This document shows, piece after piece, positions 2,703 to 45,834 of a stretch of DNA of 63,169 bases. The notes below the pieces were generated by a model. It saw only the letters and a program-made list of their open reading frames with translations, had not been told where the DNA came from and did no database searches. Position 1 is the first letter of the stretch; the number at the start of each line of letters is the position of its first letter. Origin of the DNA: Acidobacteriota bacterium (GTDB lineage: Bacteria; Acidobacteriota; UBA6911); assembly GCA_012719455.1 (NCBI GenBank), contig JAAYAJ010000024.1, positions 1 through 63,169 of the forward strand, written 5' to 3'. Position numbers and translations under genes: made by a program.

Positions 2703-2713
2703 GGCGATCGGCC

Positions 2714-3982: not shown

Positions 3983-3997
3983 GGTCCATTCCCTTCG

Positions 3998-6967: not shown

Positions 6968-6983
6968 TCCGGCGATCGACCCT

Positions 6984-9570: not shown

Positions 9571-9827
9571 GCCTCCCGGTCTGCCTGCGAGTTTTTTCTC
9601 TGCCTTTTTAATCTTATTTGCTGTAGCATTTGAACAATGCGCCCGATCAGTCCGCGGGAAAGGATAGACCGGGACGTATGAGCTTGATGTTTTCTGCTGA
9701 GGACTGTCAGGATATACGGCGCCAACCGATTACATGACCCCGAACCCATACGCATGAAGTCCACTGCACTCCTTTCATTCAGGGAGCGCGCTCCCCGCGT
9801 GTGCCGGGGTTTTAATAAGGGAGAGCA

Positions 9828-10385
9828 ATGTCTGTACGTTTGTTTGTAGGGAACCTTCCCTATGATGCCGATGAATCGGACCTGAGGGAATTCTTCGAGC
9901 CTGTCGGAACCCTCTCGGCCGTGATCATCCCCGTGGACCGTGATACGGGGAAGAAGCGAGGGTTCGCCTTCGTTGAGTTCAGCGACGCGGACCAGGCCGC
10001 GGAAGCCACCCGCAGATTCAACAACCAGCCCCTCAAGGGCCGGAATGTCACCATCAACGAAGCCCGCGCCCGTGGGGAGGCGCGGCCCGACGCCGGCCCG
10101 CGCCCGCCGATGCGGTCCGCTGATTCCTTCCGGTCCGGGTTCACCTCCAGGTCCGCTTTCGGGAGCGGCGACTTTGTCCCCGACCCTTCCGAGAGCGAAC
10201 GTGCCGCACGCGCCGAAAGGCGCAGCCGCACCTTTGGCGCCAACGCCAAGCCTGCCCGCAGGCGCAAAGGCGGCTTCGGCAACCGGGGCGAAATGGGGGC
10301 CCGGAAGGGCCCGATACGGGAGCGCACCGGCGGCCGGTTCTACGGAATTCATGACGACGACCATTTCGAGGACGATCTGGACTAG
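9828..10385 (+). CDS. RRM-domain RNA-binding protein
   Basis: A 185-residue protein with one RNA recognition motif in the first 80 residues: RNP2 LFVGNLPYDA at residues 5-14 and RNP1 KKRGFAFVEF at about 44-53. The remaining 100 residues are Arg-, Gly- and Pro-rich and probably disordered, which resembles cyanobacterial and deltaproteobacterial Rbp proteins extended with a basic tail. It starts after GGGAGAG at the correct distance. The 257-base leader upstream contains the GGGAGCGCGCTCCC palindrome (9782-9795), which could be a structured 5' UTR as in cold-inducible genes; the sequence does not prove regulation. It is probably monocistronic. Confidence 0.88.
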   Translation: MSVRLFVGNLPYDADESDLREFFEPVGTLSAVIIPVDRDTGKKRGFAFVEFSDADQAAEATRRFNNQPLKGRNVTINEARARGEARPDAGPRPPMRSADSFRSGFTSRSAFGSGDFVPDPSESERAARAERRSRTFGANAKPARRRKGGFGNRGEMGARKGPIRERTGGRFYGIHDDDHFEDDLD

Positions 10386-10592
10386 GAGCCGGGTCCGTAC
10401 CAAGACTTGGATTAACAGGGTTAAGCGTCGTCGTCCCACCCGCATGCCCGGCGGCTTTTCGCGCCGGGCGCTTGCTTCCCGCCAGGTCTTCGACCTGATG
10501 ACCGGAGGTTTGCCAGAATCCGATTGGGGATCCCATCGCCAGGCGCTATGATGGGGTGCCCGACAACCCAAATCACGGGCGAGGAGACACAC

Positions 10593-12158
10593 ATGTCAAA
10601 AGTCATCACTGCGGAACAGGCGGCGGCCCTGATCGGGGACGGCGTCACCATCGGCGCCAGCACCCAAGGGATGGCGGGGTGGGCCGAGGAGGTGGCCATC
10701 GCCATCGAGAAACGTTTTCTCGAGACCGGCCACCCCCGGGACATCACCCTGGTGCACAGTTGCACCTGCGGCGACTACAAGCAGCGCGGGACGACGCGGC
10801 TCGGCTACGAGGGACTCACCCGGCGCCTGGTCTGCGGACACACCCTCACCTCCCCGAACATGATCCGGCTGATCGAGGAGAACAAGATCGAGTGCTACCT
10901 CCTCCCGCAGGGGGTCATCTGCCAGCTCTGGCGGGCGATCGCGGGGAAGAAGGTGGGGGTCATCACCTCCGTGGGGCTCGGGACCTTCGTTGATCCGCGC
11001 ATCGACGGTGGGAAGATCACCCCCATCACGAGCGAGGACATGGTCAAGCTCATCGAGATCGAAGGACAGGAGCTGCTGCTGTACAAGCCCTTCCCTGTCC
11101 ACGTGGCCCTGATCCGCGGAACGGTGGCCGACGAAAACGGCAACCTCAACATGGACCGCGAGCACGTGATCATGGAAGCCCTGCCGCTGGCCATGGCGGC
11201 CAAGAACAGCGGCGGCATCGTCATCGCCCAGGCCCACGACCTGGCCGAGGCGCACTCGCTCCCCCCCAAGAACGTCAAGGTCCCGGGGGCCCTGGTCGAT
11301 TACGTGGTGATCGCCAAGCCGGAAAACCACCACCAGACCCAGTCGACCTACTACAGCCCGGCGCTTGCGGGGAACCTCCGGATCCCGCTCGGCGGCATCC
11401 CCCCGGTCCCGCTCGACGCCCGGAAGATCATCGGGCGCAGGGCGGCGATGGAACTTGCCGCCGGCGACATCATCAACCTCGGCGTGGGGATTCCCGCCTT
11501 CGTCGCCAGCACGGTGGCCGAGGAGGGGGCGAGCCAGAGCGTCACCTTTACTACGGAACTGGGGGTCTTCGGCGGGGTCCCCGCGCTCGACCTCGATTTC
11601 GGCGGGGCCTACAACGCCGAGGCGATGATCGAGCACGCCTCCATGTTTGATTTCTACGACGGCGGCGGCTTGGACGTCACCTTTGTCGGCTTGGCCCAGG
11701 TCGACCGGAAGGTCGATGTGAACGTCAGCCGTTTCGGCAACCGGGTGGCCGGCCCCGGCGGCTTCATCAACATCACCCAGAATTCCAAGAAGGTGGTCTT
11801 CTGCGGGATGTTCGCCATAGGGTCGGAAGCGGTCATCGAGGACGGCCGGCTGCGCATCACCCGGGAAGGGAAGGGGAAGAAGTTCATCGAGCGCGTGGAG
11901 CAGGTCACCTTCAGCGGCGCTTACGCCACGCGCACCGGCCTGCCGGTGCTCTTCGTGACCGAACGGGGGGTGCTGCAGCTCTCCGACGGGGAACTCGAGG
12001 TGATCGAGATCGCGCCGGGGGTGGACCTCGAGCGCGACATCCTGGCGATGATGGAATTCCGGCCGAAGATTTCGCCCACGCTCAAGAGCATGGAGCCGGC
12101 CCTGTTCCAGCCCCACTGGGGAGGGCTCCAGGCGATTCTCGAGGCCAGAAAACACTAG
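10593..12158 (+). CDS. Acyl-CoA:acetate/3-ketoacid CoA-transferase (family I, fused subunits)
   Basis: A 521-residue single-chain CoA-transferase joining the alpha-type domain (residues 1-270, ITAEQAAALIGDGVTIGAST) and beta-type domain (about 275-521). The thioester-forming glutamate is probably E322 in FTTELGVFGG. The C-terminal GPGGFINITQNSKKVVFCG is a hallmark of propionate CoA-transferase/YdiF-type enzymes. It transfers CoA between short-chain acyl-CoA and acetate or a similar acid in the cytoplasm. GAGGAG precedes the ATG by eight bases; the open frame further upstream is non-homologous. No linked beta-oxidation genes are visible, so the physiological acyl group is unknown. Confidence 0.9.
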   Translation: MSKVITAEQAAALIGDGVTIGASTQGMAGWAEEVAIAIEKRFLETGHPRDITLVHSCTCGDYKQRGTTRLGYEGLTRRLVCGHTLTSPNMIRLIEENKIECYLLPQGVICQLWRAIAGKKVGVITSVGLGTFVDPRIDGGKITPITSEDMVKLIEIEGQELLLYKPFPVHVALIRGTVADENGNLNMDREHVIMEALPLAMAAKNSGGIVIAQAHDLAEAHSLPPKNVKVPGALVDYVVIAKPENHHQTQSTYYSPALAGNLRIPLGGIPPVPLDARKIIGRRAAMELAAGDIINLGVGIPAFVASTVAEEGASQSVTFTTELGVFGGVPALDLDFGGAYNAEAMIEHASMFDFYDGGGLDVTFVGLAQVDRKVDVNVSRFGNRVAGPGGFINITQNSKKVVFCGMFAIGSEAVIEDGRLRITREGKGKKFIERVEQVTFSGAYATRTGLPVLFVTERGVLQLSDGELEVIEIAPGVDLERDILAMMEFRPKISPTLKSMEPALFQPHWGGLQAILEARKH

Positions 12159-12334
12159 TTTGCCCCCCGGGAAGGGGTGTGTCGTGGTCTCACTGCCCAA
12201 CCGCATCCCATCGGGATAAGGAAGGAATGTGGGATCTCAACCTTCGAGAAGGCGGTTTCTGCAGGCAGGATTGGCCCTGCCGGCCGCCGGCTTCCTGGAG
12301 GCCAGGCCGGGCAGGCCCCAAAGGATGAGGGGCC

Positions 12335-13603
12335 TCATGGACGTGATCGGTGAGTCCGTTTTGCGGGCCGGCCCCAGCCCGCCGGGGTCCGGGTGCCGTA
12401 GATGCCCCCGCGTGCCCCCAACTCTTCCAGGGCGCGGGCGAACAGGGGGTCGACCTCCCCGGGGGGCGCCGCGGCAAACGCGGTCTGGGGCAGCGGGGCG
12501 AACAGGTGCGGGTGCACCCGCGCCCCCAGCGCCACGATCCGCTCCATGGCGCGCAGGCTCGCGCGCCGGTCCTCCTCCTCTTCCCCCGGCAGCCCGAAGA
12601 TGAAGTCGACGATCACCTTGAACCCCCGACGGCGCGCGAGCGCCACCGCGCCGAGCACCTCCTCCACCGTATGCCCCCGGCCGCACGCCTCGAGCACGCG
12701 CGGGCTCCCCGACTGGGCGCCGATGACGATCTCGTCGTTGTCGGCATATTCCCGCAGCAGGGCGAGGGTCTCCTCCGTGACGTGCTCGGGCCGCGCCTCG
12801 GACGGGAAGTGGGCGAAGAGGATCTTCGCCCGCTTCCCGACGGCCCCGCGCAGCGCAGAGAGCAGTTCCCGCAGGGCGGCAAGATCGAGCCGCCGGCCGT
12901 CAGGGGAGCCGTAGGAGAATGCATTGGGAGAGAGGAGCCTGACGACCTTGCGGTCGATGGAGCGGAGGGCGAGCGCCTGCTCGACGATCCGGTCGACCGA
13001 GCGGTGGCGCAGCCGGGTGCCGAACAGGTGCGACGTCTGGCAGTAGCTGCAGGCGAAGGCGCAGCCGCGCGTGATCTCGATCGGGCCGAACATCCCGCGC
13101 GCGGGGGAGATCGAGGAAGCCGCGTCGAGATCGACCGGCTCCTTCCCCCGGATGACGCCCCCTTGCTCGAAGGGGCCCGCCACGCCCCCGCCGAGGAGCG
13201 AGAGGAGAACCCGGGGAAAGGTCTTTTCGGCCTCGCCGGTGAAGACTGCGTCGGCCCCGGCGCGGAGCACCTCTTCAGGTCGTGCGGAGGGGTGCGGGCC
13301 CCCGGCGAGGAGGACCACCCGCTCTCCCCACTGGGCGCGCAACTCCGTCATCAGGCGCGCCTGCTCCTCGAACTGGCACGTCATCATCGAGAGGGCGATG
13401 ACGGCGCGGGTGGTATTGCGGAGCCGCTCCGCCGTCGCGGCGCAGAGTTCGGCCGAGGTACGGGGGAGGTCGATCCGCAGCCGTTCCAACCCGGGGGTGG
13501 CGTCGAGCGCCCCCGCCAGCGCGTTGAAGCTGTAGGTGTTCAGGCGGTGGTAGTGGAAGAGGAGGGCGGTGTCGTCAGCCACGGAGATCGGCGGTTTTGT
13601 CAT
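12335..13603 (-). CDS. B12-binding-domain radical SAM protein (MJ_1487/TIGR04013-like)
   Basis: A 422-residue protein. The N-terminal 150 residues resemble a cobalamin-binding Rossmann domain (VVLLAGGPHPSARPEEVLRAG, FTGEAEKTFP), and the radical SAM core begins around 175 with RGCAFACSYCQTS, giving the CxxxCxxC cluster ligands. Downstream, GAQSGSPRVLEACGRGHTVEE and FIFGLPGEEEEDRR are typical of the B12-SAM subgroup. The overall layout and length resemble the family annotated as B12-binding/radical SAM protein of the MJ_1487 type, whose reaction is not established. The Arg-rich C-terminus looks like unstructured extension. No partner genes indicate a substrate. Confidence 0.82.
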   Translation of the reverse strand: MTKPPISVADDTALLFHYHRLNTYSFNALAGALDATPGLERLRIDLPRTSAELCAATAERLRNTTRAVIALSMMTCQFEEQARLMTELRAQWGERVVLLAGGPHPSARPEEVLRAGADAVFTGEAEKTFPRVLLSLLGGGVAGPFEQGGVIRGKEPVDLDAASSISPARGMFGPIEITRGCAFACSYCQTSHLFGTRLRHRSVDRIVEQALALRSIDRKVVRLLSPNAFSYGSPDGRRLDLAALRELLSALRGAVGKRAKILFAHFPSEARPEHVTEETLALLREYADNDEIVIGAQSGSPRVLEACGRGHTVEEVLGAVALARRRGFKVIVDFIFGLPGEEEEDRRASLRAMERIVALGARVHPHLFAPLPQTAFAAAPPGEVDPLFARALEELGARGGIYGTRTPAGWGRPAKRTHRSRP

Positions 13604-13615
13604 CCCGGGCGGCTC

Positions 13616-14144
13616 CTAGGCCCGGCCGCGCAGTTTGCACGCCTGCACCAGCTCGAACGAATTGTACGATTGCATCTCCTCTTCCCTTCCTTCGGCTCCC
13701 CCGGTTGCCGCCCCGCCGGCCGGTCCGGTTGTTGCAGCCCTTTCCCCCCGTCGGCTCCTCTTTCCGGGAGACGTCAAAGATGAACCGGCGCCGGCATTTG
13801 CGGCAGGCCAAGGCCCGGTCGAACCGTTCGATGTCGACGTAGACGGTGTCGAGGAGGTCGCCCGAAACGGCGTTCCTTCCAATCCAAGGACGATCGCCTC
13901 CTTTCCGCTTGAGACGCGGGTGATAGCGGGGGAGCGTCTCAGGTTGAGGCTCCGGCGCTCGTTGTTGATCAGCGCTGATCAGCTCGTTGAAACGGCCGTC
14001 CTTCTCGAAGGGGTAGAGATCGTACAGGCTCGAGGCCGGCAGCACGTCCCCGATCCTGTGGCGCATCAGGCGCCGGAAACCCTGAAAACGCGTTCTGTAG
14101 CCGTGTTCGATCCGGAGCGGTTTGAGATGCTTTTCAGCCGGCAT
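13616..14144 (-). pseudogene. Frameshifted N-terminal relic of a PEP/pyruvate-binding-domain protein
   Basis: From the ATG at 14144, minus strand, the frame reads RIEHGYRTRFQGFRRLMRHR and SSLYDLYPFEKDGRFNELIS, which resembles the conserved N-terminus of large proteins annotated as PEP/pyruvate-binding domain proteins. Near 13970 the homology moves to another frame (RRSLNLRRSPAITRVSSGKE), so at least one frameshift separates the halves. Homology then fades; a cysteine-rich piece (ALACRKCRRRF) follows and may belong to a different remnant. The kinase-like remainder is absent. I read this as decayed DNA, not a live gene. Confidence 0.5.
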
Positions 14145-14389
14145 GCGTGTCCTTGAGACCGTCCACAGAATAGCAGAAGGGGGAGCGGATGCACAACGGG
14201 ATCCCCTCCCGTGCGCCGGTCATGCCCTGATGCGTGTAATGCTTCTCTTTCGAGCAGAATCCCTTCTTCCTGGGCCCGGCAGGAGCAATCGCACCCGTTC
14301 GCCGATCCGAAATATTCTATAACCTGACTGTCTTGCAAAATAAACGGGTGTCGTGTATAAGTGGCAGATCTGAAAGGAGGAAGTCTGTC

Positions 14390-16597
14390 ATGAGAGATAC
14401 AGTGTGCGGGGGAAGATTCACGCGGGGGCTGCGCCGGCTGGCGCTTATTGCCGCGTTTGCCGCGCTGGGAGGGTTTTCCCTTCCGGCCGCGGCCGAGGAG
14501 AGCGACGGGACGCAGGACGAGGTGTTTGCGCTGGGAACCTTATTCCGAAGCGTCGTGGAGGAGCGGGCCGGATCACCCTCCGAGCTGATGGAAGAGACCG
14601 TGGGCAGGACCCAAATCCAGCTTTTTGAACAAAGAACGGTGGACGAGGCCATCATGCGCCTGCCGGGTGTGCGCTACGTCCGTCCGAGAGGCGGGCGTTT
14701 CGAATCGGGTGTTGTTGTCCGGGGATTCTCGGCTTTTGGGAACAGGGACGCGGCGGTGCCGCTTTTCGTCGACGGCATCCCGGCCTCGGTGCCCTACGAT
14801 TACAGCATGGACATGGGTCGTTTCACCACCGGCGGCCTGTCGGCCATCAGCGTGTCCAAGGGCTACAGTTCGGTGCTCTACGGGCCGAACGCCCTTGGCG
14901 GAGTCGTCAATATCGTCTCGCAGCGGCCCACGAAACCGTTGTACGGCAACGCAACGTTCGGGATCGGCACCGGGGACACTATCGAGGCCAATGGAATCTT
15001 CGGGACTTTGCAGGACCGGTGGTACGCCCAAGTCGGCTTGTCGTATCTCAAGCGGGAGTTCATCCATGCCGCCGACACCTTCACCGGCACCGATTCCACC
15101 GGCCAGGAAAGGGACACCGACCGGAAGAACTACGGTACCCGGGATAAAAAAATGGAGTTCAAGGTCGGCTTCCTCCCCAACCAGACGGACGAGTACGTGG
15201 TGAGCTATCTCCGGCAGACCGGCCGGAAGGGGGCGCGGAGGGATTCGGGCAGCTGTTCATCGACCACCAACCCGGAATGCTGGGCGCTGGGCTACATCGA
15301 AAGCTGGTGGGAATGGCCCTACTGGGATCGCGAGACCCTGTCCTACGTTTCCAAGACGCATTTGGGTGGCATCTACCTGAAGCCCCGCGTCTACTACGAC
15401 AAGTACGACAACGGCCTTTATGGCTGGGGCCGGAGCTACGCGACCAGGGACGATTCTCTGAGCCGCTACGATGATTACGCCTGGGGCGGGTCGCTGGAGA
15501 TAGGAACGGCCAAATCCGAGAACAACGAACTGAAGGGGATTTTTTCCTACAAGTTCAACCAACATAAGGCCTACGACCTGGAGGGGCACGACGGCGGCCG
15601 CATCGATGGAAGCGATGAGAAGCTCGAGGAGCAGGTCTTCTACTTCGCTCTCGAGGACACCTACCGGATCAGCGAGCAGTGGGAAATCCAGGGCGGCCTG
15701 CTCTACAGCCGGCGCCAGACTACCTATGCCGGTGAGGGGCTAAATATCGCCGACCTGATCATCGACTATCCCACGACCGATTTCGGTCTCACCCCTCCCG
15801 ATATCGACTCCTGGGATCCGCAGGGGGTCGTGTTCTACAAGCCCACTAAAAACCATGCTTTCCATTACTCCATCGCCAAGAAGACGCGGTTCCCGTCGAT
15901 CCGAAACCAGTTTTCGAATTACGGGGCGGGGGACACTTATAACGCGGGAGGTGCAATCGGCAGGATACCGCTGGTCACCCTTCCCAACCCCGGTCTGAAG
16001 CCGGAAAAGGCGCTGCATCACGAGGTGGGCTGGGACGGCAAGTTCTTCAGCCGGCGGCTGGCCGTGACGCTCGATCTGTTCTACAGCACGAACCGGGACC
16101 TGATCGACCGATCCACCGTGGACATCACCACCTATCCCGGCTACGCCGTGCAGCAGGTGGTCAACGTCGCCGGCGACACCCGGCGCAGCGGCATGGACCT
16201 GGGGGTGGAGTACATCGCCGACGACCGTCTCCTGATCGGCGGCAGCTTCAGCTACCTGCATTCGGAAAACAAGGATGTTCCCGCATGGCGTCCCACCCAC
16301 CCGGCCTACAACGGTTCGCTTTATGCCAGCATCAGGCTGAACCGCTGGGCCTCACTTGTTCCGGCAATGGATTATTTCGGCCGGAGCCGATACAGCTCGA
16401 CCGGAGCCAACCGCTGGGCCTATAACCAGGGAGCGGCGCTCGTCGACCTGAAACTTTCCATAACTCCACCGATGCACCGGAATGTTTCCATCAATTTCGG
16501 CGCGGAAAACCTCTTCAATACGGACTACCGGGGATACAACGACGCCTATCCTTCCCCGGGCCGTTACTACTTCGCCAACGTGCGCTACGCCCTGTAG
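14390..16597 (+). CDS. TonB-dependent outer-membrane receptor
   Basis: A 735-residue outer-membrane receptor. A signal peptide (residues 1-33, ending PAAAEES) leads to a plug domain (about 60-200: RTQIQLFEQRTVDEAIMRLP, LFVDGIPASVPYD, VLYGPNALGGVVNIVSQRPT) and a 22-strand-type beta-barrel ending in an aromatic-rich strand, GRYYFANVRYAL. AAAGGAGG lies seven bases before the chosen ATG; the open frame continues 19 codons upstream from a TTG, but without support. TonB receptors import siderophores, cobalamin, glycans or metals across the outer membrane. No transporter or biosynthetic neighbours indicate the ligand. Downstream is a decayed gdhA fragment, and upstream another relic. Confidence 0.9.
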   Translation: MRDTVCGGRFTRGLRRLALIAAFAALGGFSLPAAAEESDGTQDEVFALGTLFRSVVEERAGSPSELMEETVGRTQIQLFEQRTVDEAIMRLPGVRYVRPRGGRFESGVVVRGFSAFGNRDAAVPLFVDGIPASVPYDYSMDMGRFTTGGLSAISVSKGYSSVLYGPNALGGVVNIVSQRPTKPLYGNATFGIGTGDTIEANGIFGTLQDRWYAQVGLSYLKREFIHAADTFTGTDSTGQERDTDRKNYGTRDKKMEFKVGFLPNQTDEYVVSYLRQTGRKGARRDSGSCSSTTNPECWALGYIESWWEWPYWDRETLSYVSKTHLGGIYLKPRVYYDKYDNGLYGWGRSYATRDDSLSRYDDYAWGGSLEIGTAKSENNELKGIFSYKFNQHKAYDLEGHDGGRIDGSDEKLEEQVFYFALEDTYRISEQWEIQGGLLYSRRQTTYAGEGLNIADLIIDYPTTDFGLTPPDIDSWDPQGVVFYKPTKNHAFHYSIAKKTRFPSIRNQFSNYGAGDTYNAGGAIGRIPLVTLPNPGLKPEKALHHEVGWDGKFFSRRLAVTLDLFYSTNRDLIDRSTVDITTYPGYAVQQVVNVAGDTRRSGMDLGVEYIADDRLLIGGSFSYLHSENKDVPAWRPTHPAYNGSLYASIRLNRWASLVPAMDYFGRSRYSSTGANRWAYNQGAALVDLKLSITPPMHRNVSINFGAENLFNTDYRGYNDAYPSPGRYYFANVRYAL

Positions 16598-16737
16598 CGG
16601 CGGCCGGTTTTTTCGGGGGGCGCGCCGAGCGGCGTTCCTGGTATCCGGTTTCGGGCACGACCCGGAGCCGGATGCCCGGGCCCGGTGTCCCCGAACGCGG
16701 AAAACACCCGCCTCTTTCGGGAGAGACCGGAAGAGGC

Positions 16738-16960
16738 GGGGCCGGTTAAAGACAAGTAGGCCAAGGCTTGGTCCAGCCTCCGGCATGGCGTCCGCGACCT
16801 CGAGGAAGCCGCCGATGTTGGCGGCGTTGAAATAGTTGCCCGGCGTCCGGAAGCGCTTGCGCACATTCGACGCGGGCGGCGTGAAAGCTCTTCATGATCA
16901 GGTGCAGGCGGTTTTCGACCTCCTTGCCCTGTTTCATTATGATGCGGAGGTTGCTGCCAG
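16738..16960 (-). pseudogene. Decayed 3' fragment of NADP-glutamate dehydrogenase (gdhA)
   Basis: Minus strand. One frame reads KEVENRLHLIMKSFHAARVE and, after a frameshift near 16865, another reads TPGNYFNAANIGGFLEVADA. Together they match the C-terminal end of GdhA (in E. coli the corresponding parts are a KLHHIM-type helix and NYVQGANIAGFVKVADAM). Only about 65 codons of a 450-codon gene remain and the stop is lost. The rest of the 16598-16999 gap shows no gene. Confidence 0.6.
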
Positions 16961-16999
16961 GGGTGGGACGCTGGAGAAGGGCCCGCTGGGGGAGCAGGG

Positions 17000-18376
17000 T
17001 CAGTGGCTGGAGCTCTGGGGCTCCTCTTCCCACCAGAGGTCCATGATGCGGCGGGCGCCAAGATAGTGATTTTTGTACCAGAGCTTGCCGAGGTCGCTGA
17101 CGATGACCTTTTTGGCCTTGCGGGCTGCGTGGAGGAACTTGTTGTCCCCGATGTAGATGCCGACGTGAGTCGGCGTCTTCCCGCCCGAGGAGAAAAAGAC
17201 CAGGTCTCCCGCTTCGAGATCTTTCTGGTCGATCTTTTCCCCCTGCTGGAACTGCTCGCGCGAGGAGCGGGGTAAGTTGAGATTGAACTTGGAAAAGAGA
17301 TTCCTGACCAGCGCCGAGCAGTCGAGCCCGGTCTTTTCCGAAGTCCCGCCGTACCGGTAGCGGATCCCCAGCATCTTGAAACCCGCCTCCACCAAGCGCA
17401 GGCGCGCCGGGAGTTCCTCTTCTTCAGTTTTCCTGGAAATGTAGGTGGACAGGTCGGGGGCGGACTGGGACTTGGCGACCGACTCCGCCTTCGCGGCCAC
17501 GGTGACGACACCGGGGAGTTGCAGCGTCTGCCCCACCTTGAGCCGGGTTCCCTTCAGGTGGTTGGCCGTCTGGAGTTCCTGCACGGTGGTGTTGAACCTT
17601 CGGGCGATCTGGAAGAGGTTGTCCCCCTTGCAGACGGTGTAGCGCTCCTGCTGCGGCTCCGCTTCCGGTTGCGCCGCCATTGTTGCCGAGCTGTCAGAGG
17701 TATCGGCAAGCGTCACCGCCGGATTGGGGGAGGGACTCGTGCTCTCGGCGTAGGGAACGACCGCATAATCAGTGGCATCGGGGGCCGATGGGAGTCGGAG
17801 GGTCTGCCCGATTGCAATCCGGCTCCCCTTCAGGTTGTTGGCTGCCTGGAGTTCTTTCGGGGTGGTGTCGAATTGTCTGGCGATCTGAAAGAGAGTGTCC
17901 CCTTTGCGGACCTTGTAGGTCCGGGGCGCCGCCGGTTTCTGTGCCGCCTGCCGGGAGGAACGGCCTGTTTGTCCGGGCAGGGGCTGTTGGAGCCCATCCG
18001 ATATTTCGCCGTTTGCCATTTCCCCGATCCCGGCCGGATTCTGGGCCGACGCCGTCTGGTGGGCGGCCGGGGAGGAGGAGGTCCCGGTCGCCTTGATCTC
18101 GTCGGGGAGGGAGGGGACCGTGAGGTTCTGCCCGGCCTTGATCAGGCTGTTTTTCAACCGGTTGGCCGTTTGGAGCTTTTGGGGCGTGGTGCCGAAGCGC
18201 CTGGCGATTCCCGAGAGGGTGTCCCCCGGGCGGACCTTGTATTGCCTGGTCTCGGGTTGCTGCGCCGTGGAGGAGGTTGCAGGACGCGATGTCCCCTTGG
18301 CGTGGACGGGCCATGGCGCGGCAATAGCGGCCATGAACGCCACAACTACGGCAACCTGACAAAACGTGTACTTCAC
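17000..18376 (-). CDS. Triple-LysM NlpC/P60 peptidoglycan endopeptidase
   Basis: A 458-residue secreted cell-wall hydrolase. A signal peptide (about residues 1-26, ending VHAKG) precedes three LysM repeats near 45-90, 152-196 and 245-290, each with the pattern YKVRPGDTLSGIARRFGTTP and separated by Ser/Pro/Gln-rich linkers. The C-terminal NlpC/P60 domain carries catalytic C353 in LDCSALV and H404 in THVGIYIG, with a final HYLGARRIM segment. Such enzymes cleave the gamma-D-Glu-diaminopimelate bond in stem peptides, and LysM holds them on glycan. It converges with the upstream gdhA relic and diverges from the TlpA-like lipoprotein. Confidence 0.93.
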   Translation of the reverse strand: MKYTFCQVAVVVAFMAAIAAPWPVHAKGTSRPATSSTAQQPETRQYKVRPGDTLSGIARRFGTTPQKLQTANRLKNSLIKAGQNLTVPSLPDEIKATGTSSSPAAHQTASAQNPAGIGEMANGEISDGLQQPLPGQTGRSSRQAAQKPAAPRTYKVRKGDTLFQIARQFDTTPKELQAANNLKGSRIAIGQTLRLPSAPDATDYAVVPYAESTSPSPNPAVTLADTSDSSATMAAQPEAEPQQERYTVCKGDNLFQIARRFNTTVQELQTANHLKGTRLKVGQTLQLPGVVTVAAKAESVAKSQSAPDLSTYISRKTEEEELPARLRLVEAGFKMLGIRYRYGGTSEKTGLDCSALVRNLFSKFNLNLPRSSREQFQQGEKIDQKDLEAGDLVFFSSGGKTPTHVGIYIGDNKFLHAARKAKKVIVSDLGKLWYKNHYLGARRIMDLWWEEEPQSSSH

Positions 18377-18665
18377 CCTCTTTTACCCACCTTTTTGTGG
18401 TGACCGTAACCCGCCTTCTCAGGTCCTGGCGGCTGGCCTGCGCGAGCGCATCCTTTCCTTATCGGCTCCTTATCGGCCCGAAGCCGGGGAAAAATGCCTT
18501 CCCATCATATTCAAATTTTCCCCCAACGCAACATTATTTTTGGGTCGGTCGCCGCCATGATGCGGCATGCCATTGCCCTATCTATGCTTTGGCGGGTGGG
18601 GAGCGATGGTATACTGTGGCTCAATTTTCCGGGCGGGGTCCCGGGCCAGGGAGAGCGGCCGCGTG

Positions 18666-19181
18666 ATGACAAGAAAGATCTGGTTAGGTTCGGTTTTGTT
18701 GGCATGGCTGGTGTTTTCGGGGTGCGCGCGCCGGGAACCCCCGGTTGCGGGGGAGGCGGAGATTGGCCGTCCGGCGCCCGCTTTCACGCTCCCGGACCTG
18801 GAGGGGAAGCAGGTGTCGCTCGCGGAATTCCGGGGGAAGATCGTCCTGGTCGACTTCTGGGCGACCTGGTGCGTGCCCTGCCGGATGACCATGCCGATGC
18901 TCGAGGGCCTCGGGCGGGAATACGCCGACTCCATGGTCCTGCTGGCTGTCAATCTTCAGGAGACTCCGGACGTGGTGGGCGATTACGTCCGTTCCCAGTC
19001 GATCCGCTCCCGGATCCTGCTCGACGAAGATGGTTCCATTGGAATGGCGTACGGGACCGAGTCGATCCCGATGCATTTTCTCATCGACCGCGAGGGGGTC
19101 CTCCGCCAGGTCCACTCCGGCTATTACTCCGGGATGGAGGCGGACCTGCGTAGGGAGATCGAAACCCTCCGCCGCCAATAA
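18666..19181 (+). CDS. TlpA-like thioredoxin-fold lipoprotein
   Basis: A 171-residue periplasmic thiol-disulfide protein. The N-terminus MTRKIWLGSVLLAWLVFSGC ends in a lipobox-like FSGC. The thioredoxin domain has IGRPAPAFTLPDLEGK, the active site WATWCVPC (C69, C72) and the cis-Pro loop SIPMHFLIDREG. AhpC/TSA-Redoxin-type TlpA or ResA homologues reduce cytochrome c apoprotein or other exported thiols. The stop codon TAA at 19179-19181 abuts the first unit of a REP cluster; the gene converges on the M16 peptidase. The ATG chosen has a GTG three bases upstream as an alternative. Confidence 0.88.
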   Translation: MTRKIWLGSVLLAWLVFSGCARREPPVAGEAEIGRPAPAFTLPDLEGKQVSLAEFRGKIVLVDFWATWCVPCRMTMPMLEGLGREYADSMVLLAVNLQETPDVVGDYVRSQSIRSRILLDEDGSIGMAYGTESIPMHFLIDREGVLRQVHSGYYSGMEADLRREIETLRRQ

Positions 19182-19250
19182 TGGACATCCACCATCTCCA
19201 GCAATTCGGGACATCCACCATTTGCCCCATTTCGTGGGTGTCCACTATTG
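19182..19250. repeat. REP cluster 1 (three units)
   Basis: Units at 19182-19196, 19203-19224 and 19234-19250 (inverted). The last two face each other across a 15-nt loop (19219-19233). The cluster fills the gap between two convergent genes and contains the M16 peptidase stop codon (19245-19247). Confidence 0.85.
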
Positions 19251-21994: not shown

Positions 21995-22167
21995 CAATCC
22001 TGGACATCCACCATCTGAACGGGGCGGGCTCGACAGCTCCCGGACCCCGCCGCTTTCCGCATAAAGACTACCATGGGTGCGAATAGCGGACATCCTCCAT
22101 TCACCCGTGGCCTGGTTCCAATCCTGGACATCCACCATATCGACGAAAAAGTGGATGTCCAGGATTG
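21995..22167. repeat. REP cluster 2 (four units, one perfect hairpin)
   Basis: Units at 21995-22017, a degenerate one at 22086-22104, and an inverted pair with 17-bp perfect arms CAATCCTGGACATCCAC (22119-22135) and its complement (22151-22167) around a 15-nt loop. It occupies the divergent promoter region between the M16 peptidase and the HD-domain gene. Confidence 0.88.
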
Positions 22168-22228
22168 AACAGGGCGCCTGAACGGGAATGTCGTTGCGCC
22201 GGGTGGCGGGAGGGGTATACTCCCGGGT

Positions 22229-22807
22229 ATGGACACTCACATTCCCACGAGGCAGGAGGCTTGGGAGATCCTCTGCCGGTACAATGAGAGCGACAGCCTC
22301 CGCCGGCACGCCCTGGCCGTGGAGGCGGTGATGCGGCATATGGCCCGCAAGCGGGGCGAAGACGAGGAGATGTGGGGGGTGATCGGCCTGGTTCACGACC
22401 TGGATTACGAGCGCTACCCCGAGGAGCATTGTCGCAAGAGCGCCGAAATTCTCGCCGCGGCGGGTTGGCCCGAAGATTACATCCGCGCCGTTGTGAGTCA
22501 CGGCTGGGGGATTTGCTCCGACGTTGAACCCCTGAGCCCCCTTGAAAGGACGCTTTACGCCGTCGACGAACTCACGGGCCTGGTCGCCACTTCGGCCTTG
22601 GTCCGACCCTCGAAGAGCATCCTCGACATGGAGGCGTCGAGTGTCAAGAAGAAGTGGAAGGACAAACGCTTCGCGGCTGGGGTGGATCGCGCGGTGATCA
22701 AAAGGGGAGCGGAACTCCTCGGCGCGGATCTCACCTCCCTCATCACCGATACCATCCTGGGGATGCGGCTCGTGGCGCGCGAGATCGGTCTCGGGGGGAA
22801 CGCCTGA
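22229..22807 (+). CDS. HD/HDIG-domain metal-dependent hydrolase
   Basis: A 192-residue cytoplasmic HD-superfamily protein. The metal site is visible as H27 (RRHALAVEAVM), the HD doublet in GLVHDLDYERYP, and a later His/Asp in VVSHGWGICSD and AVDELTG. HDIG proteins of this length are common, poorly characterised phosphohydrolases. The ATG follows a weak GGGAGGGG motif. A REP hairpin ends about 60 bases upstream, so it may lie in the 5' UTR or promoter. It converges on the VKOR-DsbA gene. Confidence 0.85.
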   Translation: MDTHIPTRQEAWEILCRYNESDSLRRHALAVEAVMRHMARKRGEDEEMWGVIGLVHDLDYERYPEEHCRKSAEILAAAGWPEDYIRAVVSHGWGICSDVEPLSPLERTLYAVDELTGLVATSALVRPSKSILDMEASSVKKKWKDKRFAAGVDRAVIKRGAELLGADLTSLITDTILGMRLVAREIGLGGNA

Positions 22808-24626: not shown

Positions 24627-26573
24627 ATGGCATTGGTTACGCTCGACAAGGTTTCAATGGCCTACGGCTCCCTGCCCCTGCTGGACAATGCCTCGCTTCA
24701 GATCGAGGAGGGGGAGCGGGTCTGCATCCTCGGGCGCAACGGGACGGGGAAGTCGACACTGCTTGCGATTCTCGCTGGATCCGTAGTGCCTGATTCCGGG
24801 TCGGTCTACCGGCAGCCGGGAATGAGGACGGCCCTGTTGAACCAGGACGCGGCGCTGGTGGACGACCGCCCCGTTTTCGACGCGGTCGCCGAAGGGCTGG
24901 GGGATCTGGGGCGCCTGGCAGCCGAGTACCACCATGCGGCTGTCCAGGTTTCGGAGAGCGCGGACCCTTCCCTGCTTGACCGCTTGGGGCGGCTGCACCA
25001 GGAACTGGAAAAAAGGGACGGCTGGCGGCTCGAGCAGAGGGTCGAAACGATCCTCTCCCGCTTGGAACTCCCCCCCGACGCGATCGTGAACACCCTCTCG
25101 GGCGGGTGGCGCCGCCGGGTGCTGCTGGCCAGGGTGCTGGTGGCCCAGCCGGAGCTCCTGCTCCTGGACGAGCCGACCAACCACCTCGATATCGGGGCGA
25201 TCACCTGGCTCGAAAGCTTCCTGGCGGAATATGCGGGGACGGTGGTGACCGTCACCCACGACCGGGAATTCCTGCAGCGGTTGGCCAGCCGGATCGTGGA
25301 GCTCGACCGGGGGAGGCTCACCTCCTGGGAATGCGGCTACGGCGAGTTCCTGCGCCGGAAGGAGGAGTGGCTGGCCAACGAGGCCCTGGGGAGGGAAAAA
25401 TTCGACCGGCGGCTGGAAGAGGAGGAGGCGTGGCTCCGGCGTGGGATCAAGGCCCGACGGACCCGGAACGAGGGGCGGGTGCGCGCCTTGATGGCTATGC
25501 GCGCCGAGCGCGCCGCCCGGCGTGAGCGGTTGGGGACCGCCCGGCTCGAACTGCAGGCGGCCGCCCCCTCGGGCCGCCTTGTCTACGAAGCCGACCACAT
25601 CTCCAAATCCTTTCCCGATAAAATCGTGGACATCCACCAATTGGCTCCGCCTAATGGTGGATGCCCACGATTCGTGATTCGCGATTTTTCCATCCGGATC
25701 ATGCGGGGGGACCGGATCGGCCTCCTCGGCCCGAATGGCGCGGGCAAGACCACTCTCCTGCAGCTGCTGCTGGGGGAACTGGCTCCCGATTCCGGTTTCA
25801 TCCGGACCGGCGCCAACGTGCAGGCGGCCTACTACGACCAGCAGCGGGAGCAGCTCGACCCGGAAAAGACCGTGCTGGAAACGGTGGGGGAAGGGAACGA
25901 GGTGGTGACCATCAACGGCCGGCAGCGTCACATCAACGGTTACCTGCGCGATTTCCTCTTCCCGCCCGAGCGCGCCCGCTCCCCCGTGAAGTCGCTCTCT
26001 GGGGGGGAGCGCAACCGGCTTCTGCTGGCACGGCTCTTCACGCGCCCAGCCAACGTTTTGGTGCTGGACGAGCCGACCAACGACCTGGATTTGGAGACCT
26101 TGGAGCTGCTCGAGGCCCGGCTGGTCGATTTTCCCGGCACCATCCTCCTGGTCAGCCACGACCGCGCTTTCCTCGAAAATGTGGTCACCAGCCTGCTGGT
26201 GTTCGAGCCGGGCGGGCGTATCGAGGAGCATATTGGCGGCTACGCGGCCTGGGCCGAACGGAAGGCGAAGACGGAGGCGCAGGAAAGGCTCGCACCGAAG
26301 GCGCAAACTCCCGCGCCTGCCAAGGAGCCTGAGCGAAAGCCCGTGCGCCGGAAGCTCTCCTACATGGAGCAGCGGGAGTACGACCGCCTGCCGGAGCGGA
26401 TCGAAGCGCTGGAGACGGAGCAGGAGCGCATCGACGCCCGGATCTCCGCCCCAGATTTCTACCTGGAGGCTCCCGAGGAGATTGCCCGGGTACTTGAGCG
26501 GAAGGAGTCCTTGCACCAGGAACTGCTCGATGCCTACTCTCTTTGGGACTCCCTGGATTCCCGCGCGCGCTGA
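24627..26573 (+). CDS. ABC-F ATPase (Uup-like) with in-frame REP insertion
   Basis: A 648-residue soluble tandem ABC ATPase. The first cassette has Walker A GRNGTGKSTLL, signature LSGGWRRRVLLARVL and Walker B LLLLDEPTNHLD; the second has GPNGAGKTTLL, LSGGERNRLLLARLF and VLVLDEPTNDLD. The C-terminal coiled-coil (SYMEQREYDRLPERIEALE onward) marks the Uup subgroup, which acts on ribosomes or DNA-linked processes. Residues about 333-349 (IVDIHQLAPPNGGCPRF) have no counterpart expected in the family and are encoded exactly by a 51-bp REP hairpin (25622-25672) inserted without disturbing the frame, at the entry to the second cassette. The final codons begin a 118-bp stretch repeated exactly downstream. 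No transmembrane segments are present. Confidence 0.9.
   Translation: MALVTLDKVSMAYGSLPLLDNASLQIEEGERVCILGRNGTGKSTLLAILAGSVVPDSGSVYRQPGMRTALLNQDAALVDDRPVFDAVAEGLGDLGRLAAEYHHAAVQVSESADPSLLDRLGRLHQELEKRDGWRLEQRVETILSRLELPPDAIVNTLSGGWRRRVLLARVLVAQPELLLLDEPTNHLDIGAITWLESFLAEYAGTVVTVTHDREFLQRLASRIVELDRGRLTSWECGYGEFLRRKEEWLANEALGREKFDRRLEEEEAWLRRGIKARRTRNEGRVRALMAMRAERAARRERLGTARLELQAAAPSGRLVYEADHISKSFPDKIVDIHQLAPPNGGCPRFVIRDFSIRIMRGDRIGLLGPNGAGKTTLLQLLLGELAPDSGFIRTGANVQAAYYDQQREQLDPEKTVLETVGEGNEVVTINGRQRHINGYLRDFLFPPERARSPVKSLSGGERNRLLLARLFTRPANVLVLDEPTNDLDLETLELLEARLVDFPGTILLVSHDRAFLENVVTSLLVFEPGGRIEEHIGGYAAWAERKAKTEAQERLAPKAQTPAPAKEPERKPVRRKLSYMEQREYDRLPERIEALETEQERIDARISAPDFYLEAPEEIARVLERKESLHQELLDAYSLWDSLDSRAR
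25622..25672. repeat. REP hairpin inside the ABC-F coding sequence
   Basis: Arms AATCGTGGACATCCAC and GTGGATGCCCACGATT with one mismatch and a 19-nt centre. At 51 bp (17 codons) it keeps the reading frame. The CCTGG core seen elsewhere is here CGTGG/CCACG, paired on both sides. Confidence 0.85.
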
Positions 26574-26633
26574 TCTTTGCATCTGTGCACCCGCCCGCCA
26601 AGCCAATGGGTGGATGTCCACAATTTGTGCATC
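26516..26633 (+). repeat. 118-bp direct repeat, copy 1 (ABC-F gene end plus REP unit)
   Basis: Begins in the last codons of the ABC-F gene and ends just after a REP unit (26603-26627). Identical by eye to 26733-26850, with an offset of 217 bp. Confidence 0.9.
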
Positions 26634-26732: not shown

Positions 26733-26850
26733 CCAGGAACTGCTCGATGCCTACTCTCTTTGGGACTCCCTGGATTCCCGCGCGCGCTGATCTTTGCATC
26801 TGTGCACCCGCCCGCCAAGCCAATGGGTGGATGTCCACAATTTGTGCATC
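26733..26850 (+). repeat. 118-bp direct repeat, copy 2
   Basis: Exact second copy of 26516-26633, including the ABC-F stop codon and REP unit (26820-26844). A further degenerate unit follows at 26849-26866. The copy carries only 57 bp of coding sequence and cannot make a protein. The remaining gap up to 26936 has no gene. Confidence 0.9.
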
Positions 26851-26936
26851 AGGTGGATGTCCCTCATCGGCATTTGGTTTACAATGAAGCGCGGGTCCTT
26901 TTACTGGTTACTGAAGCGATCTTTCAAGGGGGGGCT

Positions 26937-30808: not shown

Positions 30809-30885
30809 CAATCCTGGACATCCACCATTTGTGAAAATCCGTGGATGTCCAGGATTCTTTTCACAAATGGTGGATGTCCACAATT
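30809..30885. repeat. REP cluster 3 (perfect hairpin plus one unit)
   Basis: Inverted pair with 16-bp perfect arms (30810-30825 and 30841-30856) around a 15-nt loop, followed by a unit at 30864-30885. It lies upstream of the pst operon in the 30588-31032 gap. I saw no clear Pho box in that gap. Confidence 0.88.
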
Positions 30886-31032
30886 CTCCGGAAATCCCGG
30901 TCCCGATGACGGCCCGAAGGGCGCCGAGGGCGGAGGCGATCCTTAACCGGAATTTCACACAACCGCAAATGATCCCTAACAAAGAAAAGGTATTCATTCA
31001 GCCGTGAGTAACGGAACCAAAGGAGGGCGGCG

Positions 31033-35923: not shown

Positions 35924-35955
35924 CCCGGCAAAAGGAAAGCCAAAATCCCGGACAA

Positions 35956-36143
35956 AATCCTGGACATCCACTGATTGATCCAAAGGATCTCAATCCTGGA
36001 CATCCACATATTTGCCCAATTAGTGGGTGTCCAGGATTGGTTCCTTAGGTTGGGGGCAACAAATGGTGGATGTCCCGCAATTTGCTACCGATTGGTGGGT
36101 GTCCAGGATTGATGAGTCTACAAATGGAGGATGTCCAGAATCC
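35956..36143. repeat. REP cluster 4 (six units)
   Basis: Units at 35956-35977, 35991-36014, 36023-36039, 36060-36083, 36090-36111 and 36121-36143. The second and third form a hairpin with 17-base arms (one mismatch, GGATG/GGGTG) and a 15-nt loop (36008-36022). The cluster separates pstB from phoU inside the operon. Confidence 0.87.
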
Positions 36144-38115: not shown

Positions 38116-38209
38116 CAGAGTTTCCTCCTGCTAACGAATGCGCGATGCATTCTCCAGAGATGTCCCTAGTTGTGGTCGGATCGGATAATGCCCCGATCAT
38201 AGTCCAAAT

Positions 38210-38340
38210 AATACTGGACATCCACCAATTTGAATTCCGGACAATAACCCATTTGCCAAATCCTGGACACCCACGTATTTGCCGAATCGTGGACGCCACC
38301 AAAAGAGCGTTTGGCGCTCAAATAGTGGATGTCCATGATT
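38210..38340. repeat. REP cluster 5, 3' flank of the RAYT gene
   Basis: Units at 38210-38232, degenerate 38233-38255, 38256-38281, degenerate 38284-38303, and inverted 38319-38340, which ends about 30 bp from the transposase stop codon. REPs flanking the transposase gene are the usual arrangement for RAYT loci. Confidence 0.85.
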
Positions 38341-38371
38341 TTGGGCGGGCGTTGGTTGTCTGGTCGGAAAC

Positions 38372-39436: not shown

Positions 39437-39695
39437 AATTGTGGACATCCACCGTTTTGCAGGATTTTAGCCGTTCGCCAGGTGATCGGGATTGCCACAG
39501 GGCTGGATGATACTGGATCACCGAAATTGATGGAGGTTACCGATGTTCTGAATTGGGGGGCCACTTCCTCCATGATTCAGGACATCCACCGATTGCCACC
39601 TGGAATTATTGGATGTCTACTATCGTAGCACCGTGCCATTGGTGGATGTCCATGATTCGGGAAGGCGTATGAAATATGTGGGTGTCCACTATTTC
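39437..39695. repeat. REP cluster 6, 5' flank of the RAYT gene
   Basis: Units at 39437-39459, 39574-39595, 39604-39628 (degenerate), 39636-39660 and 39672-39695. It fills most of the 39374-39816 gap between the transposase and release factor 3; no other gene is seen there. Confidence 0.83.
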
Positions 39696-39816: not shown

Positions 39817-41430
39817 ATGGAAACCGCAACTGTCTCCAACGAAACCGAATACGTCCCGGGCGCCTGGCGCCATGAGATCCTCCGCCGGCGCACCTTCGCC
39901 ATCATCTCCCACCCCGATGCCGGGAAAACGACCCTGACTGAGAAACTGCTGTTCTTTGCCGGTGCCATCGACCGGGCAGGGTCGGTGCGCCCCAAAAAGC
40001 AGCGCAAAACGGCCACCTCTGACTGGATGGCGATGGAGCAGGTGCGTGGCATCAGCATTACCTCGACCGTGCTGCAGTTCGAGTACGAGGGGCGCCTCCT
40101 AAACCTCCTCGATACCCCGGGGCACCAGGACTTCAGCGAGGACACCTACCGGACCCTCACGGCCGTCGATTGTGCCGTCATGGTGCTCGATGCTGCCAAA
40201 GGGATCGAGCCGCAGACACTGAAGCTGTTCGAGGTCTGCCGCCTGCGGCGCCTCCCGATCCTCACCTTCGTCAACAAGATGGACCAGCCGAGTCTCGAGC
40301 CGGTAGAGCTCTTTGACTCGATCGAGCGGGTGCTGCGGATATCCGCCTGTCCGGTGAACTGGCCGGTGGGCCTGGGGGCGGATTTTCGCGGGGTGGCTGA
40401 GCTCGATTCGCGCCGCTTTATTCCTTATCACCGTATGGGGGGGTACAGTTCCGGTGAGGAGCTGGCGCTCGACAGCGAGGAGTTTGTCCGGGATGCGGGC
40501 ACCGGCAATGCCCGGCAACTCAGCGAAGAGCTGGAACTCCTGGGCGGCGTGGTTGCCTCCTTCGACCGGGAGCGTTTCCTGAAAGGGGAGCAGACCCCGA
40601 TCTTTTTTGGGAGCGCGCTGCACGACTTCGGGGTAGAGGCCTTTCTCAATGCGCTGGTGGAGCATGCGCCCCCGCCGCAGGCGCGTGCGGGAAAGCAGGG
40701 GCCGGTCGACCCGCTCGAAGCCGGCTTTTCCGCCTTCGTCTTCAAGATCCAGGGGAACATGGACCCCAACCACCGGGACAATATGGCGTTTCTGCGCATC
40801 TGCTCGGGACGTTTCGAACGTGACATGCAGGTCTACAGCGCCCGCCTGGGGAAGAAGATCAGGATGACGCGGATGCACCGGCTTTTTGCCCGGGAGCGAG
40901 AAACGCTCGAAGAAGCGTTTGCCGGGGATGTGGTGGGGGTGGTCAACCCCGGGATGTTTACGATCGGGGACACCCTGAGCGCGGAGCCGGGGGTGGAGTA
41001 CGGTAGAATTCCGAGCTTTCCGCCGGAGCATTTCGCGGTACTGCGCTGCCTGGACATGAGCCGTAACAAACAGTTCCGCAAGGGGATTGCGCAACTAGCC
41101 GAAGAGGGGGTCGCGCAGCTCTACCATGATCCCGAGGCTGCCCGCTGGGAACCGATCCTGGGCGCGGTCGGGAAGCTGCAGTTCGACGTGATGCAATCCC
41201 GCCTGCTCCAGGAGTACGGGGTGACAACCACGGTCGACTTTCTGCCCTACGAGTGCGCCTGCTGGCCGCAGGGAAGCGCCGAGGCACTGGCGCGCGTCCG
41301 TTGGCCGAGTTTCGGCTTCGGCCTTGTTCGTGATCACCAGGACCGTCTCGTCTGCCTCTTCCGCTCCCGCTGGGACCGTGATCACTTCACGCCCGACTAT
41401 CCCGATATCGTCTGGAGCGACATGGGTTAG
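39817..41430 (+). CDS. prfC: Peptide chain release factor 3
   Basis: A 537-residue translational GTPase that recycles RF1/RF2 from the ribosome. G1 is SHPDAGKTTLTE, switch I contains RGISITSTVLQFEY, G3 DTPGHQDF, G4 NKMD, and the RF3-specific C-terminal domain ends with YECACWPQG and FGLVRDHQDRLVCLF. The length is normal (E. coli 529). The last about 12 codons and stop region (from 41393) are duplicated 244 bp downstream in degraded form. There is no strong Shine-Dalgarno before the ATG. Confidence 0.93.
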   Translation: METATVSNETEYVPGAWRHEILRRRTFAIISHPDAGKTTLTEKLLFFAGAIDRAGSVRPKKQRKTATSDWMAMEQVRGISITSTVLQFEYEGRLLNLLDTPGHQDFSEDTYRTLTAVDCAVMVLDAAKGIEPQTLKLFEVCRLRRLPILTFVNKMDQPSLEPVELFDSIERVLRISACPVNWPVGLGADFRGVAELDSRRFIPYHRMGGYSSGEELALDSEEFVRDAGTGNARQLSEELELLGGVVASFDRERFLKGEQTPIFFGSALHDFGVEAFLNALVEHAPPPQARAGKQGPVDPLEAGFSAFVFKIQGNMDPNHRDNMAFLRICSGRFERDMQVYSARLGKKIRMTRMHRLFARERETLEEAFAGDVVGVVNPGMFTIGDTLSAEPGVEYGRIPSFPPEHFAVLRCLDMSRNKQFRKGIAQLAEEGVAQLYHDPEAARWEPILGAVGKLQFDVMQSRLLQEYGVTTTVDFLPYECACWPQGSAEALARVRWPSFGFGLVRDHQDRLVCLFRSRWDRDHFTPDYPDIVWSDMG

Positions 41431-41622
41431 ACCGGGGACGGACCACAAAAGACCAAATTCTGGGTATCAGCCCTCGGCCGATCAAGAATAGGTGGATGTC
41501 CAGGATTGCGGCAACAGGTGAGTCTATTTGTGGGAACGCCACCACTCGACGCAGCGGTGGAGCCCTTCTCCAGGCTGACGGTGGCGCTTCAACCGAGTCG
41601 CCGCTCCGCCTTCCGGGTGTCG
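41393..41622. repeat. Imperfect tandem duplication, copy A (prfC end plus REP plus epimerase 3' relic)
   Basis: About 230 bp containing the functional prfC 3' end, a REP unit (41487-41508), and a degraded minus-strand copy of the last about 110 bp of the downstream epimerase. It aligns with 41637-41860 at roughly 85-90 % identity by eye, with one 7-nt gap. Confidence 0.82.
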
Positions 41623-41636
41623 ACCTAACTAAGTGG

Positions 41637-41860
41637 CCGACTATCCCGCTATCGATTGGAACGACATGGGTTAGACCGGGGACGGACCACAAAATCCTAG
41701 GTGCCGGTCCTTGGCCGATCAGGAATAGGTGGATGTCCAGGATTGCGGCAACAGGTGAGTTTATTTGCGGGAACGCCACCACTCGACGCAGCGGCGGATC
41801 CCTTCCTCCAGGCTGACGGTGGCCTTCCAACCGAGCAACCGCTCCGCCTTCTGGGTGTCG
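41637..41860. repeat. Imperfect tandem duplication, copy B (prfC relic plus REP plus functional epimerase end)
   Basis: Contains a decayed prfC 3' end (41637-41672), a REP unit (41724-41745), and the functional 3' end of the epimerase. In copy A it is the prfC part that is functional, so each copy retains one live gene end. Confidence 0.82.
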
Positions 41861-42705
41861 GCCCAGGTAGCCATGATGTCCGCCTTGTGAAAGGGCTTGT
41901 GGTCAATCCGCGCCTTCTTTCCGGTGTACTTTTCAACCAGGCCGATCATCTCGTCCAGTCGGTGCGGTTCGCTCCCCCCGAGGTTGATCACCTCGAAGCC
42001 GAGCGGCTGCAGCGCCCGCACCGTTCCCTCGGCAATATCGTCGACGTAGGTGAAGTCGCGGCTCTGTGATCCGTCGCCGAAGAGTTCGAGCGGCGTCCCT
42101 TCGTCGATCCACTTGATGAAACGATACACGCTCATGTCGGGCCGCCCCAACGGCCCGTACACGGTGAAGTAGCGCACGACCGTGACGTCGATACCGTATA
42201 AATAATGATACGAGTAACACATTGCCTCGGCCGCCTTCTTGCTCGCGGCGTAGGGGCTGATCGGGGTGTTGACCGCCAGCGTCTCCGAAAACGGCATCTC
42301 CTGTCCGGCGTAGAGCGACGATGTCGAGGCCAGCACGAACTTGCCGATTCCACGCTTCCGGCAGAGGTCCAGCAGGTTCAGCGTCCCCATTGCGTTCGTG
42401 CTCATATAGATGAATGGGTTATCCATGCTGTAGCGCACCCCGGCACGTGCCGCCAGGTTGAGGACCGCGTCGAAGCGGTATTCGGAGCCGAGCGCCTCGA
42501 GCTCCCCGAGATCCTCGATGTCCATCTTCCTGAAGGTGAACGCCCCGAAACGCCTCAGCGCTTCGACCCGTGACTCCTTGAGCGCCACGTCATAGTAGTC
42601 GTTCAGGTTGTCGATTCCGACAACGGCGTCCCCACGCTCGAGCAATTTTTCGGCCGTCTTCGACCCGATGAACCCCGCTACCCCCGTGACCAGATACGTT
42701 CCCAT
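41761..42705 (-). CDS. NAD-dependent epimerase (UDP-glucuronate 4-epimerase-like)
   Basis: A 314-residue extended SDR. The Rossmann motif is GVAGFIGSKTAEKLL, and DNLNDYYDVALKESR is the signature of UDP-glucuronate/UDP-glucose 4-epimerases of the CapI/LspL type. The catalytic pair lies in STSSLYAG and YAASK, and the product side has VYGPLGRPDMSVYRFIKWI and GDGSQSRDFTYVDDIAEG. GGGGGC precedes the ATG at 42705. It sits at the end of a minus-strand surface-sugar gene set with rmlB-rmlC-rmlA. Its 3' end lies inside a tandem duplication, and a decayed copy of the end is present at about 41510-41622. Confidence 0.87.
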   Translation of the reverse strand: MGTYLVTGVAGFIGSKTAEKLLERGDAVVGIDNLNDYYDVALKESRVEALRRFGAFTFRKMDIEDLGELEALGSEYRFDAVLNLAARAGVRYSMDNPFIYMSTNAMGTLNLLDLCRKRGIGKFVLASTSSLYAGQEMPFSETLAVNTPISPYAASKKAAEAMCYSYHYLYGIDVTVVRYFTVYGPLGRPDMSVYRFIKWIDEGTPLELFGDGSQSRDFTYVDDIAEGTVRALQPLGFEVINLGGSEPHRLDEMIGLVEKYTGKKARIDHKPFHKADIMATWADTQKAERLLGWKATVSLEEGIRRCVEWWRSRK

Positions 42706-42995: not shown

Positions 42996-43007
42996 GTCGC
43001 CTCTCAA

Positions 43008-45807: not shown

Positions 45808-45834
45808 CTGATCCCGTCCCCGGCAATTCGAGAA

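Follow-up and report, generated by a model that had tools for sequence, protein, structure and literature searches.

A short palindromic repeat is read in frame within a uup-like ABC-F ATPase gene of an Acidobacteriota bacterium. Its most probable history, to which we give a probability of about 0.87, is that a selfish REP-like palindrome entered this gene before three species diverged from their common ancestor, and has been kept as a tolerated loop. The window, that is, the whole stretch of 63,169 nucleotides analysed, contains the gene and the repeat as follows:

24627 to 26573, plus strand: Uup-like ABC-F ATPase gene, 648 amino acids, with two intact ABC cassettes and a C-terminal domain
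25622 to 25672, plus strand: REPIN-like palindrome of 51 nucleotides, an in-frame insertion, recognised from its hairpin z score, the empty site of relatives and a three-species codon alignment
25622 to 25642, plus strand: first repeat unit, AATCGTGGACATCCACCAATT, family D1, matching the unit consensus
25653 to 25672, minus strand: second repeat unit, inverted, placed by the repeat family and consensus alignment

The inserted DNA (51 nucleotides, AATCGTGGACATCCACCAATTGGCTCCGCCTAATGGTGGATGCCCACGATT) is a near-perfect palindrome with the layout AATCGTGGACATCCACC-AATTGGCTCCGCCTAAT-GGTGGATGCCCACGATT, and is made up of a REP-like unit of ∼22 bp, cAATccTGGACATCCACcNATTg, in two copies inverted relative to each other. 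Folded as a single strand, it forms one hairpin of -31.2 kcal/mol, against a mean of -11.5 kcal/mol for shuffled sequences (z = -8.0); none of 200 dinucleotide shuffles was as stable. The reading register is shifted by one base relative to the palindrome, codons 25623-25673 encoding IVDIHQLAPPNGGCPRF, and the insert would contribute the stretch IVDIHQLAPPNGGCPR to the ABC-F protein. The initial annotation, which described a 51-bp hairpin in frame within an intact Uup-like gene, was thus correct in coordinates, frame and peptide. No target-site duplication is visible at 25622-25672, where the flanks are CTTTCCCGATAA and CGTGATTCGCGA, and an Rfam search of the window returned a single tRNA only.

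The host gene is open across all 648 codons and both of its ATPase cassettes are matched. Its product has the domain architecture of Uup, with two ABC_tran domains, ABC_tran_Xtn (the ABC-F linker) and ABC_tran_CTD, and the closest solved structure by profile in the PDB is that of Uup (9nlj). The top NCBIfam model is ABC_ATPase_Uup; we write Uup-like rather than Uup because the score of 784 bits falls below the 900-bit equivalog cut-off. Columns that are invariant across 31 homologues are kept in both cassettes. When this genome (G000) is compared with two congeneric sister species, G004 and G006, from which its ABC-F protein differs by ∼10%, the gene minus the insert gives pN/pS of 0.12-0.15 and a JC-corrected dN/dS of ∼0.11, values that indicate strong purifying selection on the rest of the gene in all three species. 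An insert near an ATP site could be taken as the mark of a pseudogene in decay, where insertions of any kind would do no harm; given the selection on the remainder of the gene and the invariant columns kept in both cassettes, this is very improbable.

The 3′ end of the gene is itself duplicated, together with a repeat unit:

26516 to 26633, plus strand: direct duplication copy 1, 118 bp, comprising the ABC-F gene end and a repeat unit at 26605-26626; family D11
26733 to 26850, plus strand: direct duplication copy 2, 118 bp, with a repeat unit at 26822-26843; family D11

These copies, 217 bp apart, are 100% identical and both include the last ABC-F codons; recombination at the repeats may have produced the duplication.

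Evidence that the palindrome was gained comes from a comparison set of 80 homologues, mostly from Acidobacteriota, and from a whole-genome search of relatives of the source genome. Among these, an insert at the same site is found in G004 (the public MAG Zod_Metabat.919, ABC-F locus L009) and G006 only, where it is in frame, 87 nucleotides long and built of three units, reading PEKIMDIHSLPKAGPIMDIHHSAGPIGGCPQF and PGKIVDIHSLPEAGPIMDTHQSSGPKGGCPQF respectively. By unit count and orientation the insert in the window is an inverted doublet, REPIN-like in form, and that of the sister species a triplet. The other aligned homologues, including those of the congeners G001 and G005, have an empty site, typically SKSF followed by four residues and V[VI]R. 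Measured against this spacing, the gene in the window has gained a net 16 residues (48 nucleotides) and the genes of the sister species 28. A gain of 17 residues had been proposed from the sequence of the window; the peptide itself stands, and its last codon (TTC, F) most probably takes the place of an ancestral residue. The two insert lengths differ by 36 bp (12 residues), exactly the spacing of direct ATCRTGGACATCCAC copies in the longer form; units have probably been gained or lost through recombination or slippage between these direct copies.

Two other accounts of the insert bear on these comparisons. If the peptide were ancestral protein sequence that resembles the repeat by chance, it should not be missing from all other aligned homologues, nor should the match to the repeat family span both units of a palindrome far above chance; the intact frame is the sole point in favour of this account, which is hardly credible. 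The proposal that the peptide was not ancestral holds for the homologues examined, since, apart from the two sister species, none has a Uup with this peptide. Equally, repeat-driven misassembly could place a multicopy repeat within a gene, and all three genomes are fragmented draft assemblies, at least G004 being a MAG. Three separate assemblies nonetheless agree in site and frame while differing in unit number and sequence, which makes such an artefact highly unlikely. We retain insertion of a REP-like palindrome in the common ancestor as the preferred reading. The empty site and target duplication that had been expected in relatives were borne out in the first respect and not in the second, and the loop that was to be sought in orthologues is carried by G004 and G006 (28 residues) but by none of the other aligned homologues.

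The two units in the gene belong to a dispersed family. The unit, ∼22 bp with the consensus cAATccTGGACATCCACc.aTTg, is practically identical in G000, G004 and G006, and next to nothing is conserved beyond it. Units are clustered in inverted or direct orientation, most commonly 26 bp apart; inverted pairs with a spacing near this value are common, as are direct pairs and larger clusters. Exact copies of the 11-mer GTGGATGTCCA number 54 in G000, of which 24 lie on this contig, 146 in G004 and 121 in G006. The other seven congeners have 0-7 copies, and the reversed control gives 0-1. A strict inverted-pair pattern is confined to 3 of the 10 congeners, the same three genomes. In the window, further clusters are present at the following positions, with no strand assigned:

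19176 to 19250: repeat cluster, without a called gene across it
22119 to 22240: repeat cluster, without a called gene across it
30809 to 30886: repeat cluster, without a called gene across it
35955 to 36137: repeat cluster, six units
38209 to 38341: repeat cluster
39573 to 39694: repeat cluster
45835 to 45917: repeat cluster
57391 to 57582: repeat cluster, five units
60116 to 60206: repeat cluster
60520 to 60601: repeat cluster

The density of the repeat is uneven, as seen when 19176-60601 of the window is set against 1-19000 and when contigs C32, C50 and C104 of G000 and C21, C41 and C53 of G006 are considered. A few contigs are rich in it and other long ones have almost none, so that its distribution is regional, at least in G000 and G006. 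The window also holds another repeat family, with GGGGACGGACCA(C), at 41393-41863, 42728-43156, 45544-45822 and 47231-47260, together with several local duplications of 60-120 bp.

The name REP, used in the initial annotation, fits the element by form, as a small inverted pair that is multicopy and intergenic, but not by tag or by RAYT linkage. Neither GTAG nor CGTC is conserved in the ∼25-30 bases either side of the unit consensus. Five Y1 (Y1_Tnp) loci were found in the three genomes, none with a unit in the retrieved flanks, although one has a single one-mismatch 11-mer and some lie near contig ends so that one flank is short. Of the two marks of a MITE, terminal inverted repeats of a known IS and a target-site duplication, the second is not seen at this site; the search for a parent IS covered Y1. 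Since neither a target-site duplication nor a linked transposase was found, it is from copy number only that we infer mobility. By these characters the repeat is REP-like, yet not assignable to REP/RAYT.

An AlphaFold2 model of the ABC-F protein (mean pLDDT 84; pTM 0.45, which leaves the packing of domains uncertain) places the insert in the β1/β2 turn of the second nucleotide-binding domain. The equivalent turn in the first domain is of two residues. Residues 332-346 have pLDDT below 50, whereas the flanking strands, 318-329 and 348-359, are confidently predicted; the structure prediction that had been called for thus returns a disordered segment. In ABC domains the β1/β2 turn follows the A-loop, and the insert would accordingly form a disordered loop adjoining the expected A-loop.

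Selection on the insert differs from that on the rest of the gene. Its pN/pS is 0.48 between G000 and G004, 0.52 between G000 and G006 and 0.87 between G004 and G006, values that rest on ∼12-20 synonymous sites and are weak estimates because the insert is short; they suggest that it evolves close to unconstrained. A relaxed insert in a turn predicted to be disordered, within a gene under selection, points to an insertion that is tolerated and shows no sign of function. Of the two fates that had been envisaged, tolerated or functional, the first is supported by the relaxed selection and the disordered loop, and the second is not. Co-option, in which the Cys-Pro loop at the nucleotide-binding site tunes the ATPase activity or ribosome binding of the Uup-like protein, would be in keeping with an insert that adjoins the expected A-loop, is in frame in three species despite the divergence of the protein and mostly keeps its GGCP and DIH cores. 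The repeat consensus at the DNA level alone predicts these kept cores, however, and similar peptides occur in unrelated proteins. Amino-acid changes in the insert are ∼4-5 times those of the rest of the gene, its length varies by 12 residues among species, and it is predicted to be disordered. We regard co-option as unlikely, and the sequence data lean against a function for the insert.

The repeat is also read in frame elsewhere. A scan of the repeat-bearing stretches of the three genomes with a custom-made gene finder, in which counts of genic copies are lower bounds, gave 93 clusters with at least two units; 18 of the 93 fall inside any called ORF, and 7, in three genes, are convincingly coding after inspection. 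Single one-mismatch 11-mer matches in genes were dropped as chance. Several multi-unit matches that appeared genic were also set aside: L146, L165, L147 and L151 lie upstream of likely true starts (of PrmA-like and other genes), L141 and L159 are in antisense open frames, and some others are in short ORFs only. Within the window, 26827-26863 was rejected as coding; it belongs to an over-extended ORF, upstream of the start of an FAD-dependent oxidoreductase near 26938. The initial view that a mostly extragenic repeat has here become protein-coding is supported: the family is palindromic, dispersed and mostly intergenic, and in frame in the uup-like gene. The arrays in the other two genes are:

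2982 to 3163 (L145, G000:C61; gene 1128-3743, minus strand): repeat array of a GH57-like gene
14262 to 14399 (L158, G006:C79): repeat array of the GH57-like gene
3066 to 3203 (L170, G004:C59): repeat array of the GH57-like gene
8552 to 8651 (L152, G006:C41; gene 8451-10442, minus strand): in-frame array near the C-terminus of a predicted membrane protein (VDIHPLGPKDEIVDIHSFVQ...)

The second repeat-bearing gene, which from its sequence (MENYICIHAHFYQPPRENPW...) we take to be GH57-like, has 5-6 tandem units in one frame (VDTH repeats, ∼47-62 residues) in all three species. This segment is absent from six other genomes (G002, G003, G005, G008, G019 and G025). As in the ABC-F gene, pN/pS is raised within the insert, and the GH57-like array is possibly a better case than the ABC-F insert. 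It is conceivable, though improbable, that the lineage draws new protein segments from the stop-free unit, which would insert into unrelated enzymes in a common V-D-I/T-H frame and multiply there by steps divisible by three (2-3 units in ABC-F, 5-6 in the GH57-like gene), some of the loops having acquired a role. In the membrane-protein gene the site is empty in G008, and in G004 (L189, G004:C192) the array is out of frame and there is an early stop. The element itself therefore does not protect the frame; it is selection on the host gene that sorts the outcomes.

The preferred history, of a selfish palindrome that came to be tolerated, would then run as follows. A REP-like element of two inverted ∼22-bp units, resembling a REPIN doublet, would have entered the uup-like gene in the ancestor of the three species, all of one genus, presumably in a single event and through the action of a mobilising enzyme (none was found). 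The ribosome could read through it because the core of the element is stop-free in the frames seen and the net length is divisible by three. The added 16 or 28 residues would form a disordered loop in the β1/β2 turn of the second nucleotide-binding domain, which the protein tolerates, and a later gain or loss of units, in whichever direction, would have proceeded by a 36-bp step that kept the frame. Most copies would be intergenic because insertions that are out of frame or damaging are mostly removed by selection. The ABC-F protein carrying the insert is presumably made and working.

Coding palindromes that are read in frame are already known, from the Rickettsia palindromic elements (RPE) and from intragenic REPs (PMC3733652), and are a rare route by which peptide is added to proteins. 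RPEs (Ogata et al. 2002, Claverie and Ogata 2003, both as cited in PMC3733652) are in-frame insertions in genes whose products are probably functional, and also occur as grouped repeats. The acidobacterial repeat shares with them its palindromic form, its in-frame position in genes and its grouping. It differs in lacking the CGTC tag, in unit sequence, in host phylum and in the number of affected genes, three here against many in Rickettsia. In a broad sense it is RPE-like: the family is dispersed, the frame is kept with an empty site in homologues, and more than one unrelated gene is affected.

Palindromic REPs inside ORFs of several bacteria often form dimers or groups that encode 20-30 residues, clusters reaching 43-82 residues, and the GTAG-23 family of T. 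roseum is clustered regionally (PMC3733652), as is the acidobacterial repeat. Like the intragenic GTAG/CGTC REPs of that study, the repeat is a small palindrome in many copies, mostly intergenic and paired or grouped; unlike them, its unit end is neither GTAG nor CGTC. The insert thus matches those cases in all respects tested save tag and host. Its inverted REP-like doublet, high copy number and restriction to a few related genomes also recall REPINs and RAYT systems (PMC3116915, PMC2817692), from which it departs in that the few Y1 transposase genes here have no flanking unit in the retrieved DNA. The coding palindromes of Nematomorpha mitochondria (PMC6649704) are likewise inverted repeats inside protein-coding genes, but they are mitochondrial and far longer, up to 284 bp. 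A small search of open papers found no earlier report of an in-frame coding palindrome in Acidobacteriota.

With this insert, the small set of known cases in which a palindromic DNA repeat is read as protein gains a further host, Acidobacteriota, and a repeat family without tags. The survival of such inserts can be followed here, since there are three sister species, relatives with an empty site, inserts of two lengths and one array out of frame; together they indicate that host-gene selection, and not the element, maintains the reading frame.
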